Source: an uncultured cyanobacterium (GTDB lineage Bacteria > Cyanobacteriota > Cyanobacteriia > CACIAM-69d). Taken from it: a stretch of DNA of 43,284 nucleotides. Position 1 is the stretch's first letter. The number at the start of each line of letters is the position of its first letter. The position numbers were made by a program, and so were the translations under genes. Positions 3,164-26,753 of this stretch are shown here, in pieces. Location: contig CALGDE010000113.1 of NCBI GenBank assembly GCA_937883785.1, forward strand, positions 1-43,284, given 5' to 3'. The notes below the pieces were generated by a model, which was not told where the DNA came from, searched no databases, and saw only the letters and a list, made by a program, of their open reading frames with translations.

Positions 3164-4231
3164 TTAAGGGATGCGGAATGCGTCGATTAGCAGGGAGCGA
3201 TCGCCCACCAACCGATCAGCACCGGGACCGTCATAAACCACCCACAGGGCCGGTTCCCCCCAACAGGAAGCCAACATAATGCCTTCAGCTTTATCGCACC
3301 CTCGCATATGGGGCAGGGTCATGGTGCCTTGGAGGCGATCGCCGTCCCGCTCGTAAATAAAATCGGCAGTGTCGGATTTTACGTCGTCTAAGGGTGATCG
3401 CCACTGAAACACATCAGCGTAACCATCCACCGCCATGGTGGGTCCCGCCAAAATTATCAGGTCGTCTCCGTGCCAACACAAGTCTCGAATCCCCTGTCCT
3501 TGCAAGTCAAAAATGTGTTTTCGGTATAAATGTTTGCCCGCCGCTGGCAACAGTTTTAATTCCTTTTTTTCTGTGTCGTCAAATCGCAATTCTAGGATGA
3601 TTCCGTAACCCCGCAGTACCGGTCCTCTTAGTCCTAGAAATAGGCGATCGCCCCGCACTGCCAACCCTTCAATATCGAGCCCATTTTCCTTGGACGGCAC
3701 CGGATGGTGAATATAGTTACCTAGGTGGGGATCCTTTCCCAAAGCGGTCATCAGTGAATTCCCTTCCCAATGATTTTCCGCATCGCCAAAGGGAAGCACG
3801 GCGCTACCTTTCGCCACCAAGGCACCCTTCGCGGACACAGCAACCCGCCCCAAAGCATAACGGTTTGGTTCCTTCACCACCTGGGTTAATCGCTTTAAAT
3901 CTTTGCTGGCTTTGCCCTTCGGTCGCTTACGTTTCTGGCTGTGGGACCCCACAAACCATAGGAATCCATCATCGTAATCTAGCCCCTCAAAATCAATTTC
4001 TCCTTCAGGATCCGGTAAAGAAATACATTTAGGCAGGGCGCAATCCTTATGTTTTCCGTAGTGCATTGGCGTGATGGGACTTAAGCGCTCCAACGTTTGT
4101 AATTCGTCAGATCCTACCCACAGGCTACCGTCAGGACTTGTGGCGATCGCCGACAGTTCACCCCATAAATCCACATCATTCCGATTGAATTCCAGTAATA
4201 CTCGCCCTAATAAAAACGCTTCGTTATCCAT
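3164..4231 (-). CDS. DUF3616 domain protein
   Basis: A 355-residue soluble protein without signal peptide or membrane segment. It reads as a beta-propeller-like chain with ELSAIATSPDGSLWVGSDE at the start, IDFEGLDYDDGFLWFVGSHS near residue 95, NGLDIEGLAVRGDRLFLGLRGP near 190 and IRDLCWHGDDLIILAGPT near 250. These match my memory of DUF3616. Function is unknown; relatives are often found in cyanobacteria. A cluster of basic residues (KRKRPKGKASKDLKR) follows the second motif. The ATG at 4231 is preceded by an 11-bp direct repeat (4233-4254). Confidence 0.75.
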   Translation of the reverse strand: MDNEAFLLGRVLLEFNRNDVDLWGELSAIATSPDGSLWVGSDELQTLERLSPITPMHYGKHKDCALPKCISLPDPEGEIDFEGLDYDDGFLWFVGSHSQKRKRPKGKASKDLKRLTQVVKEPNRYALGRVAVSAKGALVAKGSAVLPFGDAENHWEGNSLMTALGKDPHLGNYIHHPVPSKENGLDIEGLAVRGDRLFLGLRGPVLRGYGIILELRFDDTEKKELKLLPAAGKHLYRKHIFDLQGQGIRDLCWHGDDLIILAGPTMAVDGYADVFQWRSPLDDVKSDTADFIYERDGDRLQGTMTLPHMRGCDKAEGIMLASCWGEPALWVVYDGPGADRLVGDRSLLIDAFRIP

Positions 4232-4232
4232 A

Positions 4233-4254
4233 TTTTTTCAGTGTTTTTTCAGTA
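4233..4254. repeat. 11-bp tandem repeat x2 just upstream of the DUF3616 start
   Basis: TTTTTTCAGTG then TTTTTTCAGTA, 10 of 11 positions identical, beginning one base outside the start codon. Seen directly. It is part of a window-wide pattern of short tandem duplications at gene borders. Confidence 0.7.
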
Positions 4255-4329
4255 TTTATCCTGCTCAATATTTATGCTTCTGCATTGATTCTCTGCATTT
4301 ATGTTTTCCCCTTAGAATTCACCAATAAT

Positions 4330-6805: not shown

Positions 6806-7189
6806 AAGTTTGGGCGCTTTTCGATGCTACAAAAAAAATCGGAGGGTGACGTAAAAGTAAATTTCGACCGCTTTTGGACGGTTTACCGGAGCCTGGTCAG
6901 CAGGAACTTGCTTTAGGATGGTGTAGGAACGCTCCACATAAAACGCTTTACATAAAGACGCTCCATACAAAAGCGTTATAAGCATAGCGGTTTGTGCCAT
7001 GCCTTGTCGTCACCTTATTTGTTGGTTTTTGGGGACCATCGCCGATTAAATTCCAATGCTTTGTGTAAAGGACTTAGGGCCGCGATGGCGTATCTCACCG
7101 ATACCGGTAGAGGAATCAATAAGAGGAATCAACAAAAGGATTGGCTTAAAAGCTAGGAAGTACTCAAAAGGGAATAGAAATAGGGAACA
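6806..7189. other. Divergent intergenic region with tandem repeats
   Basis: No credible gene. The interval should carry the promoters of the two divergent small-protein genes. It holds three 14-15 bp direct repeats (6929-6972) and a 13-bp direct repeat pair: GAGGAATCAATAA at 7110-7122 and GAGGAATCAACAA at 7123-7135. Confidence 0.55.
6929..6972. repeat. Three tandem 14-15 bp direct repeats
   Basis: Units ACGCTCCACATAAA (6929-6942), ACGCTTTACATAAAG (6943-6957) and ACGCTCCATACAAAA (6958-6972). They fall in a divergent promoter region, 124 bp from the minus-strand start at 6805 and 218 bp from the plus-strand start at 7190, so a regulator-binding array is possible. Simple slippage is the alternative. 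Confidence 0.65.
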
Positions 7190-13767: not shown

Positions 13768-13840
13768 TTTCTGATAATTCACTCCATATATTTATTGCCT
13801 ATATTTATCCCCTAGAGCACAGACGCCTTGGGGGAAATAT

Positions 13841-13967
13841 CTAGGAGCTGTCATCATTTGAACGTCAAAGCCTTTAGCGGCGAAGATTGCATTCCCTAGA
13901 CTGTCTGCTTTACTAGGCACTGCCCACTGTGTAAGCTTCTGGGGGGTTAATTGATGACACGCCCTAG
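13841..13967 (-). repeat. MITE-like element, copy A
   Basis: About 127 bp with imperfect inverted ends: left end CTAGGAGCTGTCATCATTTG, right end (minus strand) CTAGGGCGTGTCATCAATTA, each containing a flanking TA. On the minus strand it aligns end to end with copy B (15706-15837): shared blocks include GCGTGYCATCAATTRA, TTACRCAGTGG, GGCTTTGA and ATGATGACAGC. Its right end encodes the last residues and the stop codon of the cyclo-ligase gene. Confidence 0.75.
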
Positions 13968-14591
13968 CCACTGCTGCTCTGTACAAATAGCATCTAGAGG
14001 GCAATCCCATGGATCGTGGGGCAGGCGATCTACCAATAGAGAATCAAAAGTAATGCCCACTTTAGGAATGGAACGCCATTGGGCTTGGTCGAAGAGGCGA
14101 TCATAAAATCCTCCCCCATAGCCCAGGCGATATCCCAGGCGATCGCCCGCCACCATTGGCACCAAGATTAAATCCACCTGCTCCGGCCTTAAAACGTTCC
14201 ACCTCGAATCCGGCTCCTTCAAGCCATAGACACCATCCACCAAAGGCTGCGTCGGATCCCATTGATGCCAGCTCAGTCGAGTGGGTTTCCTATCAGACGG
14301 GCGCTCTTTAATGCAGCGTGGAAGTCCCCAAATTTTTGATTTAGCCCAAACTGGTTCATTCCACATCACTTTCAGATCGGGTTCCTGGCGGTGGCTTTGG
14401 TAAACCAATAGGGTTGTGGCTGTTTTTAGTTGGGGGTGGGAGCTTAATTGGCTTTTTAGGCGATCGCACAACTTCTGGCTTAAATGCTGCCACTGGTCCA
14501 CGGACAATTGACAACGCCAAGATAGAAACCGCCGCCGCAAATCCCGTTTTCTTTGCCCTACCTCCTTTTGTCCTGACTTTTTAGTACGCAC
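13947..14591 (-). CDS. 5-formyltetrahydrofolate cyclo-ligase
   Basis: Converts 5-formyl-THF to 5,10-methenyl-THF with ATP. The signature GYRLGYGGGFYDR is intact near the C-terminal third, the helical N-terminus (RRRFLSWRCQLSVDQWQHLSQ) is normal for the family, and the chain ends at a standard length (about 214 aa). The reading frame stays open to an ATG at 14813, but that would add 74 residues with no homology feel and would run through a 13-bp perfect hairpin (14653-14684); I therefore favour the GTG at 14591. The last codons (L-G-R-V-I-N-stop) lie in the end of MITE-like copy A, so the original C-terminus was probably replaced. Confidence 0.85.
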   Translation of the reverse strand: MRTKKSGQKEVGQRKRDLRRRFLSWRCQLSVDQWQHLSQKLCDRLKSQLSSHPQLKTATTLLVYQSHRQEPDLKVMWNEPVWAKSKIWGLPRCIKERPSDRKPTRLSWHQWDPTQPLVDGVYGLKEPDSRWNVLRPEQVDLILVPMVAGDRLGYRLGYGGGFYDRLFDQAQWRSIPKVGITFDSLLVDRLPHDPWDCPLDAICTEQQWLGRVIN

Positions 14592-15705: not shown

Positions 15706-15837
15706 TTAGAGCGTGCCATCAATTGAGCGCCACAAGTCTTACGCAGTGGCAAGTTAACGCCGTTTCAACACCAAAAACGCTAGGGGCTAAAACCCTTGTG
15801 ACTTTTGGCTTTGAGATTGAATGATGACAGCCCCTAG
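15706..15837 (+). repeat. MITE-like element, copy B (reference copy)
   Basis: 132 bp from TTAGAGCGTGCCATCAATTG to GAATGATGACAGCCCCTAG, with imperfect inverted ends and TA on both sides. Aligns with copy A (minus strand) over its full length, and with copy D at 26780 strongly in the first 49 bp (about 36 identical by eye) and the last 25 bp. Read in one frame, A and B share RACHQL, LTQW and GF-D/E-V/I, so the homology is visible at peptide level too. It lies 45 bp downstream of the stop of the gene at 15882-16250. Confidence 0.75.
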
Positions 15838-15881
15838 ATATGTACTTCGGCTGTTATTTTTTGTGGCTTTGACGCTGCCCG

Positions 15882-16250: not shown

Positions 16251-17061
16251 ATTCCCAAAAAACTAAACTGCTGTAATTTTAGCCACTGACACATCCAGGT
16301 TGTCAGACTTTAGAAAACTTAAAATCTCATGTTTTTGTGTTCTTATAAGTCCAGGGCTCTAGGATTTTGGGAGCTTAACAAGTTAAGTTTTGATCAACTC
16401 AAAAATCTAGATGTATGAGGCGCTAGATTGTCTAACTTGTTTCAGTATGTATGTTGATATCGCCTCTGGTTTTCAGGCATTTGATGGAGTGCTGTTTATA
16501 GGTATCGAAAATAGTAAATTTACGAGCGGTTTTGGGTGATCGCTCCGGATAGTTAAATAAATGGACAGAAAATACGGAGAATAAGGTATAAATTATTCTT
16601 CAGTCCGTTACCCTGCCTTAAAAGTCGCAATGTGCCTTGTAGCTAAGGTACAACTGGGGTAGAAGTGGCAGATAACGCCTAAAACAGTGTTGGGATGTAA
16701 ATGCTGCGAAGGGTGTCGATTTCGCTGCTTGGGGGCTGCGCGTTAGGAGTTTATTATGGGTTGCCACCCTTTACATTTCAAAGTCAATAGCTGCGAGGGT
16801 TTCAGTCCGTAGCGCCTTTTGTTTCGAAAGGCGTGTACTTCCCACTGCATCAAGCTACTGGATCCTGTCGATAACCTGCCCTGGTACGCTTTTCTAACTT
16901 GTGAACTTTCTACGCAATTTCTACTTAAGAAATTCACCAAAAAACTTATTCAAGGATTTGTTACCGAGCCTATGTTTTTGAGCAACAGACTATAAGCTCA
17001 AGTTTGACTATGTTTTTGCACAAGTGGATTAATGCAGTAAGTGGGAGCGATTGCTAAAGCT
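16251..17061. other. Long gene-free interval rich in short palindromes
   Basis: About 800 bp without a credible gene. Near the RHH gene are CTGACA-N9-TGTCAG, CTTAAC-AA-GTTAAG (16374-16387), TTTTGA-N5-TCAAAA and TCTAG-N12-CTAGA, all within 190 bp. Near the right end, a 16-bp motif CTATGTTTTTGAGCAA recurs as CTATGTTTTTGCACAA about 39 bp later, just before the GGDEF-EAL gene. Promoters for both flanking genes should lie here, but no box is convincing. Confidence 0.5.
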
Positions 17062-23997: not shown

Positions 23998-25347
23998 CTA
24001 TAATGCGCCGCCGCTGCCCAGTTGGCTAGCCTGCCATTGGCGAAAACGTTCCGTTTCCTGGAGGGCAGGATTTAGTCCAAACCATCGCCCATCGCCGTCG
24101 CGATATTCGTAAATCAACATACTTCGCAGCAGCGCCTGATAGCTGTCTTCCCCCTTCATTCCCTGACCTTGAGCCACCTGCAGCAGCAGTTCCCACTCAT
24201 TGTCGTCAATGGACAAAATTAAATCGTCGCGATAGTCCTTAACGGCATGTTCCAAACTAGTGCGGTTAAAGGGGGGATCCTCTTGCTGCAAGCACCGGTA
24301 GAGCAATCCCAACAAGGTACGGGGATGACCACCACTTACCTGACATAGGCGATCCAGGGTTTCGGGCGCATCAAACACTTCCGCAGTGATTTGCGATCGC
24401 TCTGCCGCTGGCACATCAGGAAACGCTCGCGCCAAAATCGCCTGACGCAACAGCTCCATCCCCTGATCAAAACCATTTCCCAGGCGGTCCGTCACCGGGA
24501 TCATCGGCAGAACCTTGGGCGCAACTCCACCCCCCAGGCGATTTTTTAAGGACTCATATTCATCAGAAAACAGCAGCGCCAAGGGAATCGTGTACACCAC
24601 ATGGCAATCTAGGCGCCGAAGCTGAGCCCCCCGATCCACAAACAAATACTCCGGCTGGGTCCGCCCTGACGGCATTGCCCGATTGTCCACCCGGTCCAAA
24701 TTGTCCACAATTACCACCAGCCCTCGCTTCCCTTTTTTGTCGATTAGCTGCTGGCGGGCTTTTTTCAACACCTCTTCATTAATCGCTTTAAGAATACTTT
24801 CAGCCCGAGGTTCCAAATACTGTCGCAACTGATTGCGTAACTTCGGATTGTCTTGAGTTTTTGCCGTCAGTTTAGCGATCCCCACCGAAAGCTCCGCCTC
24901 ACCCCCAAATTCAATGGGAGTTTGTAGAAAGTCAGCCACTTCGGTAAATAAATTGGTGAAGTAACCGGGCTTTAATTTGACGTCGGATTTTTCCAGGTTT
25001 TCACTGACCTGGTGGGTAATTGCCAGCAAAATATCACTAACATCCACGTCTGCCATATCTAAATCTTGGCTGGATTCAAAATAAACAACGTGGAAATTTT
25101 CCGCTTCCAGCTCTGATTTCAAACGCAAAAGTTCAGTGGATTTACCGCAGCCAATATGTCCCGTAAAAAGCTGGCAAGTGGGGTCATCAGGGGAAATGCG
25201 AGCAATGGTGCGCTTTAGCTCTTCAATAATTTTTCCCCCTCGAACCGGCGCAAAGTCAATGTAATACTTTTGGTCTTCCGGCACGCTCATATCCAGAGTC
25301 TTTGCCGGGTTGCAAGCTTTAAAAAAGCGCGATAAATCCAAAGGCAT
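23998..25347 (-). CDS. STAND/AAA-like P-loop ATPase
   Basis: About 449 residues. Near the N-terminus is FFKACNPAKTLDMSVPEDQKYYIDF, followed by RGGKIIEELKRTI, Walker A GHIGCGKST near residue 67, FESSQDLDMADVDVSDILL, Walker B-like GLVVIVDNLDRVDN near 220, a sensor-like DCHVVYTIPLALLF, and a GGHPRTLLGLLYRC motif near 350 of the kind found in STAND ATPases. A winged-helix-like C-terminal part (residues 370-440, QALLRSMLIYEYRDGDGRWFGLNP) follows. Such proteins sense and oligomerise in signalling or conflict systems. The partner is probably the gene at 23087. ATG at 25347 chosen over TTG at 25362; the region upstream is a perfect 14-bp tandem repeat. Confidence 0.75.
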   Translation of the reverse strand: MPLDLSRFFKACNPAKTLDMSVPEDQKYYIDFAPVRGGKIIEELKRTIARISPDDPTCQLFTGHIGCGKSTELLRLKSELEAENFHVVYFESSQDLDMADVDVSDILLAITHQVSENLEKSDVKLKPGYFTNLFTEVADFLQTPIEFGGEAELSVGIAKLTAKTQDNPKLRNQLRQYLEPRAESILKAINEEVLKKARQQLIDKKGKRGLVVIVDNLDRVDNRAMPSGRTQPEYLFVDRGAQLRRLDCHVVYTIPLALLFSDEYESLKNRLGGGVAPKVLPMIPVTDRLGNGFDQGMELLRQAILARAFPDVPAAERSQITAEVFDAPETLDRLCQVSGGHPRTLLGLLYRCLQQEDPPFNRTSLEHAVKDYRDDLILSIDDNEWELLLQVAQGQGMKGEDSYQALLRSMLIYEYRDGDGRWFGLNPALQETERFRQWQASQLGSGGAL

Positions 25348-25349
25348 AG

Positions 25350-25377
25350 TTCGAGGGATCAACTTCGAGGGATCAAC
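25350..25377. repeat. Perfect 14-bp tandem repeat upstream of the ATPase start
   Basis: TTCGAGGGATCAAC twice in a row (25350-25363 and 25364-25377), identical. It lies 3 bp outside the ATG on the minus strand and would be part of the mRNA leader. Confidence 0.85.
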
Positions 25378-25500
25378 TGGGACGTAACTAAATAATCGGT
25401 AAAACAGCGAGCAAATAAAGCTTGAATAAAAAGTTTTTTCTGAAAAAACCGCTCGCTTTTTCCAAATTTTTTCTAGAAAAGTGCTTCAGAAACTCTGCGC
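25378..25500. promoter_or_regulatory. Nested inverted repeat in the divergent ATPase/ftsQ region
   Basis: Outer arms AGCGAGC (25406-25412) and GCTCGCT (25451-25457); inner arms GTTTTTT (25433-25439) and AAAAAAC (25443-25449). On the plus strand a T run follows the outer arm. It could be a leader structure of the ATPase mRNA or a plus-strand terminator; I cannot decide. Promoters for both directions should lie here, but I found no convincing box. Confidence 0.4.
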
Positions 25501-25521
25501 TTAAGGACGTTTAAGCAGGAG

Positions 25522-25697
25522 AAGAGTTTCGATGATGGTGTATTTGACCTATCGGTTTGATCTGTCAAATATCACCTTTAACTGTTGGAGAGCTTACCAT
25601 TGCACTCCGGGCTTTGGACCCAGGCTGTAGCCCCCTACAGTGGCGGTAAGACGAAGACCGTTCTTGGCTGTTGTGTTCATCACAACGCATTTTTTTC
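25522..25697 (+). ncRNA. Candidate structured RNA with terminator, upstream of ftsQ
   Basis: Four helices can be drawn on the plus strand. Closing helix: AAGAG with TTCTT (25522-25526 / 25661-25665) and TTCG with CGAA (25528-25531 / 25652-25655). Hairpin 1: GGTG-TATTTGAC with GTCAAATA-(T)-CACC (25537-25576). Hairpin 2: CTTACC, CACT, GGGCT stacked with AGCCC, AGTG, GGTAAG (25593-25650). The terminator hairpin follows at 25667-25696. The layout is a three-way junction followed by an intrinsic terminator. It could be a free small RNA or a leader that controls ftsQ, whose ATG is 123 bp further on. It matches no RNA family I can name; 6S and SRP RNA were considered and not supported. Confidence 0.55.
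25667..25696 (+). terminator. Intrinsic terminator of the candidate RNA
   Basis: GC-(T)-GTTGTG, loop TTCAT, CACAAC-GC, followed by A and seven Ts (25690-25696). Eight paired bases with one bulge. It stands 124 bp before the ftsQ start, so it cannot be the terminator of a visible plus-strand protein gene. Confidence 0.75.
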
Positions 25698-25820
25698 ACA
25701 CTTTGTTCTGTATTAACTTTATTTGAGAAGAAATCTAGGTAGTCCTGATACTCTGAAACAAACCATCGTTAGTAAAGACATATGAGCGAACTTCGAACGC
25801 ACAAGGAGCGGTGCTAAACG

Positions 25821-26753
25821 ATGACAAGGCGTACGGCAGCAAGACGAAGAACAGTGGAGCGGCGACCTAAGCACAGGGAAACGCCGATGCAGTCAGTGTC
25901 GCGGGAGCGCCTTGCCCAACGCCGATCGCAACTAAAACGGCAGCGGTCCGTACGGTTTGTGTGGGGCGGATGGCAGTCTTTGGGGGCGATCGCCCTACTA
26001 GCCACCGCCGGCTGGTTGATTTCTGCCCCCGTTTGGGTGGTGCGATCGCCGGAGCAAATTGCCATTGAGGGCAACACGCGCTTTAACGACGCAGAAATTC
26101 GACAGCTATTGGGATTAACCTATCCTCAGTCCCTGTGGCGGCTAGACCCGGACAACATCGCCGATAGCCTAAAAGCTCGCGCCCCCATCGACGAAGTGAC
26201 GGTTACGCGCCAACTGCTGCCGCCGGGGTTAATTGTGCAGGTGCAGGAGCTACAGCCCGTGGCGGTGGTCCAATTAACCGCTCCTGCCAGTGATACCAGC
26301 TCCGCAAACGCCACCCCAGCAGATGCGCCCCTGGAACGGGCGCAATCCACAAGTACCGTGGGGCTGGTGGACGAGGAAGGAAAGTGGATTGAAATTTCTC
26401 GCTATCAGCAGGGACAAAATGGGCGATCGCTCCCCCCGTTAAAAGTGACCATTTCGGGCGATCAGCTAGCTCAACAATGGTCAGCTTTATATCGCCAAAT
26501 CAATCTTGCCCCTGTGCGTATTTCTGCGGTTCAATGGCAAAACGCCGACAACTTAATCCTACAAACCGAGTTGGGCACCGTTTACCTTGGTCTTTTTGAC
26601 ACCAACTTCAACGACCAACTCAGCCAACTGGCTAATTTACGAAACCTTGTTGATCAAGTTCCTCCAAACACCTTGGACTACATTGATCTCCGTGATCCCG
26701 AGGCTCCCCTTATTCAAACTAAAGGAGACCAGCCCGCTAAAAAGTCGAACTAG
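25821..26753 (+). CDS. ftsQ: Cell division protein FtsQ/DivIB
   Basis: Membrane-anchored divisome protein. Residues 1-45 are strongly basic and cytoplasmic, about 52-70 form the single membrane segment (SLGAIALLATAGWLISAPVWVV), and a POTRA domain follows at once (QIAIEGNTRFNDAEIRQLLGL, SLWRLDPDNIADSL, VTVTRQLLPPGLIVQVQELQPVAVV). The rest is the FtsQ beta domain, ending LDYIDLRDPEAP. Length 310 aa is normal. ftsA and mur genes are absent, as is usual next to cyanobacterial ftsQ-ftsZ. A MITE-like element begins 27 bp after the stop. Confidence 0.93.
   Translation: MTRRTAARRRTVERRPKHRETPMQSVSRERLAQRRSQLKRQRSVRFVWGGWQSLGAIALLATAGWLISAPVWVVRSPEQIAIEGNTRFNDAEIRQLLGLTYPQSLWRLDPDNIADSLKARAPIDEVTVTRQLLPPGLIVQVQELQPVAVVQLTAPASDTSSANATPADAPLERAQSTSTVGLVDEEGKWIEISRYQQGQNGRSLPPLKVTISGDQLAQQWSALYRQINLAPVRISAVQWQNADNLILQTELGTVYLGLFDTNFNDQLSQLANLRNLVDQVPPNTLDYIDLRDPEAPLIQTKGDQPAKKSN

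Follow-up and report, generated by a model that had tools for sequence, protein, structure and literature searches.

A putative genus-restricted non-coding transcript ending ahead of ftsQ in an uncultured cyanobacterium

The spacer between a STAND/KAP-like ATPase gene and the division gene ftsQ in an uncultured cyanobacterium carries a short conserved core, followed on the plus strand by a predicted intrinsic terminator. We tentatively read this element, with somewhat less than even confidence, as a plus-strand non-coding transcript, most likely a small RNA (sRNA), which would be restricted to one genus and end before the ftsQ promoter. The reading is based on sequence features free of a coding signal, namely a terminator-like element at the same position in both members of the genus, the core, and a conserved block downstream.

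Results

Gene neighbourhood and comparison genomes

The window, i.e. the whole stretch of DNA analysed here, comprises 43,284 nt (contig CALGDE010000113.1). The ATPase gene is located on the minus strand (23998..25347), divergent to ftsQ, and was defined by its open reading frame (ORF) and by domain matches of its product (KAP_NTPase, E 7.9e-7, plus weak STAND/AAA matches). Its start codon is ATG 25347-25345, with TTG 25362 upstream as a possible alternative. On the plus strand, ftsQ (25821..26753) encodes 310 aa with POTRA_1 (E 2.8e-15) and FtsQ_DivIB_C (E 6.9e-6) domains and is followed by ftsZ from 27307. The spacer between the ATPase gene and ftsQ has a length of 473 nt (25348-25820). A motif of about 14-15 nt is duplicated in tandem (TTCGAGGGATCAACT) at 25349-25378, abutting the ATPase start codon, and the start of this motif is present as a single copy in the relative described below.

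The sole same-genus genome found (G001) is a cyanobacterial MAG from SRR3401492, which was also the only close relative in an FtsQ scan of GTDB-based contigs. The divergent ATPase/ftsQ pair is shared by this relative and by four genomes from other genera within the family (G002-G005). Across the genera of the family the arrangement is kept but the spacer sequence is not (window 25345-25821; L033, L037, L039, L041, L043), which may point to a long-standing connection of the STAND/KAP-like ATPase with the division genes. A search of the four more distant spacers with the element stretch gave no match despite the same gene pair, and neither did a search of a plasmid collection.

Coding DNA of the host genome and that of the relative are about 76-84% identical. 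The spacer shows mostly 36-51%, near background, and only two of its blocks exceed this level, the core at 25613-25642 and a block at 25706-25790.

A terminator-like element at matching positions in both species

The predicted terminator (25667..25697, plus strand), recognised by folding and a terminator rule, combines a GC-containing stem-loop with a U-tract immediately behind it, as expected of an intrinsic terminator. In detail, the stem GC(U)GUUGUG/CACAACGC with the loop UUCAU forms a hairpin at 25667-25688 (8 pairs, -7.4 kcal/mol), followed by an A and seven U (ATTTTTTT, 25689-25696). A plus-strand terminator of this kind had been proposed by an earlier sequence-only reading of the locus, which had also noted that no protein gene precedes it on the same strand; both points hold, the latter according to the ORF list. 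By itself the terminator is only moderately unusual, occurring in 0.9% of shuffled sequences under a strict motif rule and in 27% under a lenient energy rule. A 20-kb stretch including the locus contains 16 terminator-like sites, with 24.9 expected.

The relative possesses a positional counterpart, a different and stronger hairpin, GGGCGATCGCACCATACCCTTGGCGATTTGCCC, with -13.3 kcal/mol and CATTATTTTT after it. The distance from the terminator to the ATG of ftsQ is 131 nt in the window and 124 nt in the relative. Shuffling gave a lenient terminator no more than 12 nt from the observed position in 2.0% (window) and 1.5% (relative) of cases, and a hairpin as stable as -13.3 kcal/mol anywhere in 0.75%. 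Treating the two species as independent is a simplification here, since the U-tract itself can be aligned between them, whereas the stem sequences are unrelated. The occurrence of unrelated stems at one position suggests that stopping of plus-strand transcription there is maintained in the genus. No terminator-like element was detected on either strand of the divergent spacers of the four genomes from other genera.

The conserved core

The core TTTGGACCCAGGCTGTAGCCCCCTACAGTG (25613..25642, plus strand) is identical to the relative at 27 of 30 positions (90%), while the stretches flanking it reach 36-49%. The alignment of 25586-25650 with the relative scores 46, compared with a shuffle maximum of 23. 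The core is single-copy in the host genome and contains the near-palindrome GGCTRTAGCC; GGCTATAGCC within it is a perfect palindrome in the relative.

The consensus fold of the core from the two genomes was ordinary (z -0.58, equalled or undercut in 138 of 500 column shuffles), and the core paired with the leader of ftsQ no better than shuffled sequences did. The sequences of both species allow a hairpin of 7 pairs, CAGUGRCG/CGUYCUUG (25638..25666, plus strand), and each of the two one-sided changes in it preserves pairing. Its probability is 0.23-0.36 in the window sequence and 0.00 in the relative, and it was rejected as a shared structure, being a minor form and not the favoured fold.

The upstream part of the core overlaps an ORF of 32 codons (25532-25630), which has a Shine-Dalgarno-like AGGAG before a pair of ATG codons and a stop inside the core. 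If it encoded a leader peptide, its translation would set termination, and the common ending (FGPRL-stop in the window, FGLRL-stop in the relative) fits such a function. Against this, the frame of the relative is shifted by 1 nt just before the shared end, the remainder is unrelated, core conservation continues beyond the stop, and the substitutions lack a codon pattern. In Pfam searches with the short ORFs the only match was sub-threshold, to a nematode domain (E 0.017). We judge the ORF to be non-coding and regard a leader peptide as highly improbable.

The block between terminator and ftsQ

The best-conserved part of the spacer is the block at 25706..25790 (plus strand), which we take as the promoter/leader of ftsQ. 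It shows 74% identity to the relative, rising to 84% over 25708-25775, and includes the only sigma-70-like match in the region, TTGAGA - 18 nt - GATACT (25723-25752). One such match compares with 0.6 expected, no better than chance, and the relative's version of this site falls below the threshold of the promoter scan. Since the promoter match alone is weak, the ftsQ promoter is placed within this block by its conservation. With this placement, the terminator would precede the ftsQ transcript, a position that speaks more for a separate RNA or an insulator than for attenuation. A scan of the region upstream of the terminator detected no sigma-70-like promoter for the proposed RNA.

Hairpins and the proposed three-way junction

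The sequence-only reading had also drawn a three-way junction consisting of a closing helix, a 12-bp hairpin with one bulge, and a second stacked hairpin. As no base pairs had been given, we reconstructed the helices from the sequence. Only the 12-bp hairpin was confirmed. This inverted repeat (25537..25576, identified by folding and shuffles and listed without a strand) pairs the arms GGUGUAUUUGAC/GUCAAAUAUCACC, 25537-25548 with 25564-25576, through 12 pairs with one bulge and a 15-nt loop, at pair probabilities of 0.95-1.0 and with z -3.9 over 48 nt. When the 473-nt spacer was shuffled, about 1% of the sequences contained at least one hairpin of this type. It is single-copy in the host genome, and no significant alignment to a counterpart in the relative was obtained. 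A second, AT-rich inverted repeat is located in the spacer at 25405-25463 (AGCGAGC ... GCTCGCTTTTT, containing GTTTTTTCTGAAAAAAC) and is absent from the relative; two long hairpins together were seen in 0 of 1000 shuffles.

The junction itself is not supported by folding. Pairing probabilities are 0.007-0.17 for the closing helix AAGAGU/GUUCUU and 0.002 for the base of the second hairpin, CUUACC/GGUAAG. The pairing CUGUAG/CUACAG inside the core reaches about 0.66 and is broken twice in the relative. The drawn structure has -26.6 kcal/mol versus a minimum of -51.3, a gap of about 25 kcal/mol. Folding of the whole segment yields z -1.7 to -1.8 on the plus strand, a value reached by 14% of 124 windows of equal length, and is more unusual on the minus strand (-2.6 to -2.9). 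A counterpart of the closing helix was not found in the relative. Conservation or compensatory change of the helices among relatives had been suggested as a check; the drawn helices are broken or unalignable in the relative, in a comparison of two sequences whose power to detect covariation is low. A structured three-way-junction RNA is not supported, the closing helix and the base of the second hairpin being energetically disfavoured and none of the drawn helices being kept in the sole same-genus relative.

Known RNA families and distribution

The covariance models of the Rfam 15 families, 6S RNA included, gave no match in the window at the gathering score and nothing relevant at a relaxed E-value, in agreement with the earlier statement that the element belongs to no known RNA class. 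6S RNA was considered on account of the size and terminator of the element and was dismissed, the 6S RNA of the host genome being located on another contig. A repeat or mobile element was likewise rejected, as core and 12-bp hairpin are single-copy.

A 20-mer pattern of the core with two mismatches allowed matched in 25 of 390 genomes of the class. The matches outside the genus were dismissed as chance, because their flanks share no similarity. A covariance model of the core clearly matched only the two genus members among the 390 genomes, the others having E values of 0.04-0.4. The element is thus perhaps restricted to one genus.

Elsewhere in the window, an interspersed repeat was observed that measures about 135 nt, has the inverted ends CTAGGGCGTGTCATCAATT ... 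AATTGATGACAGCCCCTAG and occurs at 13835-13975 (minus strand), 15706-15840 (plus strand) and 16775-16870 (minus strand, partial), and in L004 at 4150-4290 and 6815-6915. The host genome contains at least 40 copies of it (168 candidates), and it is also found in the relative, including the relative's ftsQ-ftsZ spacer. It has no match in Rfam and looks like a MITE.

Discussion

In the reading we favour, a short plus-strand non-coding unit in the ATPase-ftsQ spacer carries the core at 25613-25642, and its transcription would stop at 25667-25697, just ahead of ftsQ's own promoter. The unit would be transcribed from a promoter upstream of the core, and the C-rich GCCCCCYA core may represent the active part, acting through base pairing with other mRNAs. 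The combination of a conserved non-coding core and a terminator, as expected for an sRNA, was found in two genomes only. The retention of a terminator at nearly the same distance from ftsQ with unrelated stems, a core that stands out from near-background flanks with no codon pattern, and the position of the promoter-like site and of the highest conservation 3′ of the terminator all support an sRNA. Lineage-restricted cyanobacterial sRNAs, including Yfr28 near ftsQ/ftsZ (PMC7368042), provide a precedent. Points against it are the negative promoter scan for the RNA, the lack of significantly conserved structure in the core, the two carrier genomes, and pairing between core and ftsQ leader at no more than chance level. 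The main rival, nearly as likely as the sRNA although doubtful on its own, is an insulating terminator that shields the ftsQ promoter from antisense or background transcription from the ATPase side. There would be no functional RNA in this case, and the core would be a DNA site, e.g. for a regulator. Termination being kept without the stem sequence is what one expects if stopping alone matters, and both the palindromic motif of the core and the lack of a visible promoter for an RNA would fit. However, four divergent spacers of the same family do without a terminator, so insulation is not generally required, and the conservation of the core extends well past the 10-bp near-palindrome.

The earlier reading had left open whether the terminator serves a non-coding transcript or attenuates ftsQ. 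Its terminator gains from the counterpart in the relative; its attenuation alternative is weakened, because the best-conserved, promoter-like block lies between terminator and ftsQ. An attenuating leader, started upstream and feeding ftsQ by conditional read-through of the terminator, would agree with the common orientation, the 124-131 nt to the ATG in both species and the conserved stretch 5′ of the terminator. The leader helices are not conserved, though, and no shared fold alternative to the terminator was found, and such a leader is improbable; slightly more improbable still is that a conditional terminator gating read-through from an upstream promoter amounts to attenuation control of a divisome gene in this genus. 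It is also unlikely, but less so, that the spacer has no functional element and is merely fast-evolving, its hairpins and T-tract having arisen by chance. Most of it is unalignable within the genus, whole-segment folding is ordinary, and terminator-like sites across the 20 kb are fewer than expected; core and downstream block are nevertheless clearly conserved, and the terminator-like elements match in position.

At present the element is a modest candidate. If the transcript exists, it would be one more lineage-restricted cyanobacterial RNA beside division genes and would show fast RNA turnover, with the stem replaced while termination was retained. Attenuation of ftsQ, if it took place, would mean that the divisome is controlled at an uncommon point.

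In transcription-attenuation leaders, such as riboswitch or leader-peptide systems, a terminator precedes a gene of the same orientation. The present terminator shares this position relative to ftsQ but differs in lacking a conserved alternative fold and in being followed by a promoter-like block. Terminator-bearing bacterial sRNAs resemble the element in being intergenic and non-coding, with a hairpin and U-tract at the end and a conserved unstructured core; unlike theirs, the promoter, transcript and targets of the element are putative. The nearest precedent in the literature searched, judged by location and description, is Yfr28, an experimentally validated 72-nt sRNA of Prochlorococcus. 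It lies in the ftsQ-ftsZ interval on the opposite strand, where it overlaps the 5′ UTR of ftsZ (PMC7368042). Both would be lineage-restricted non-coding RNAs adjoining a cyanobacterial ftsQ, the present candidate differing in its location 5′ of ftsQ and on the same strand.
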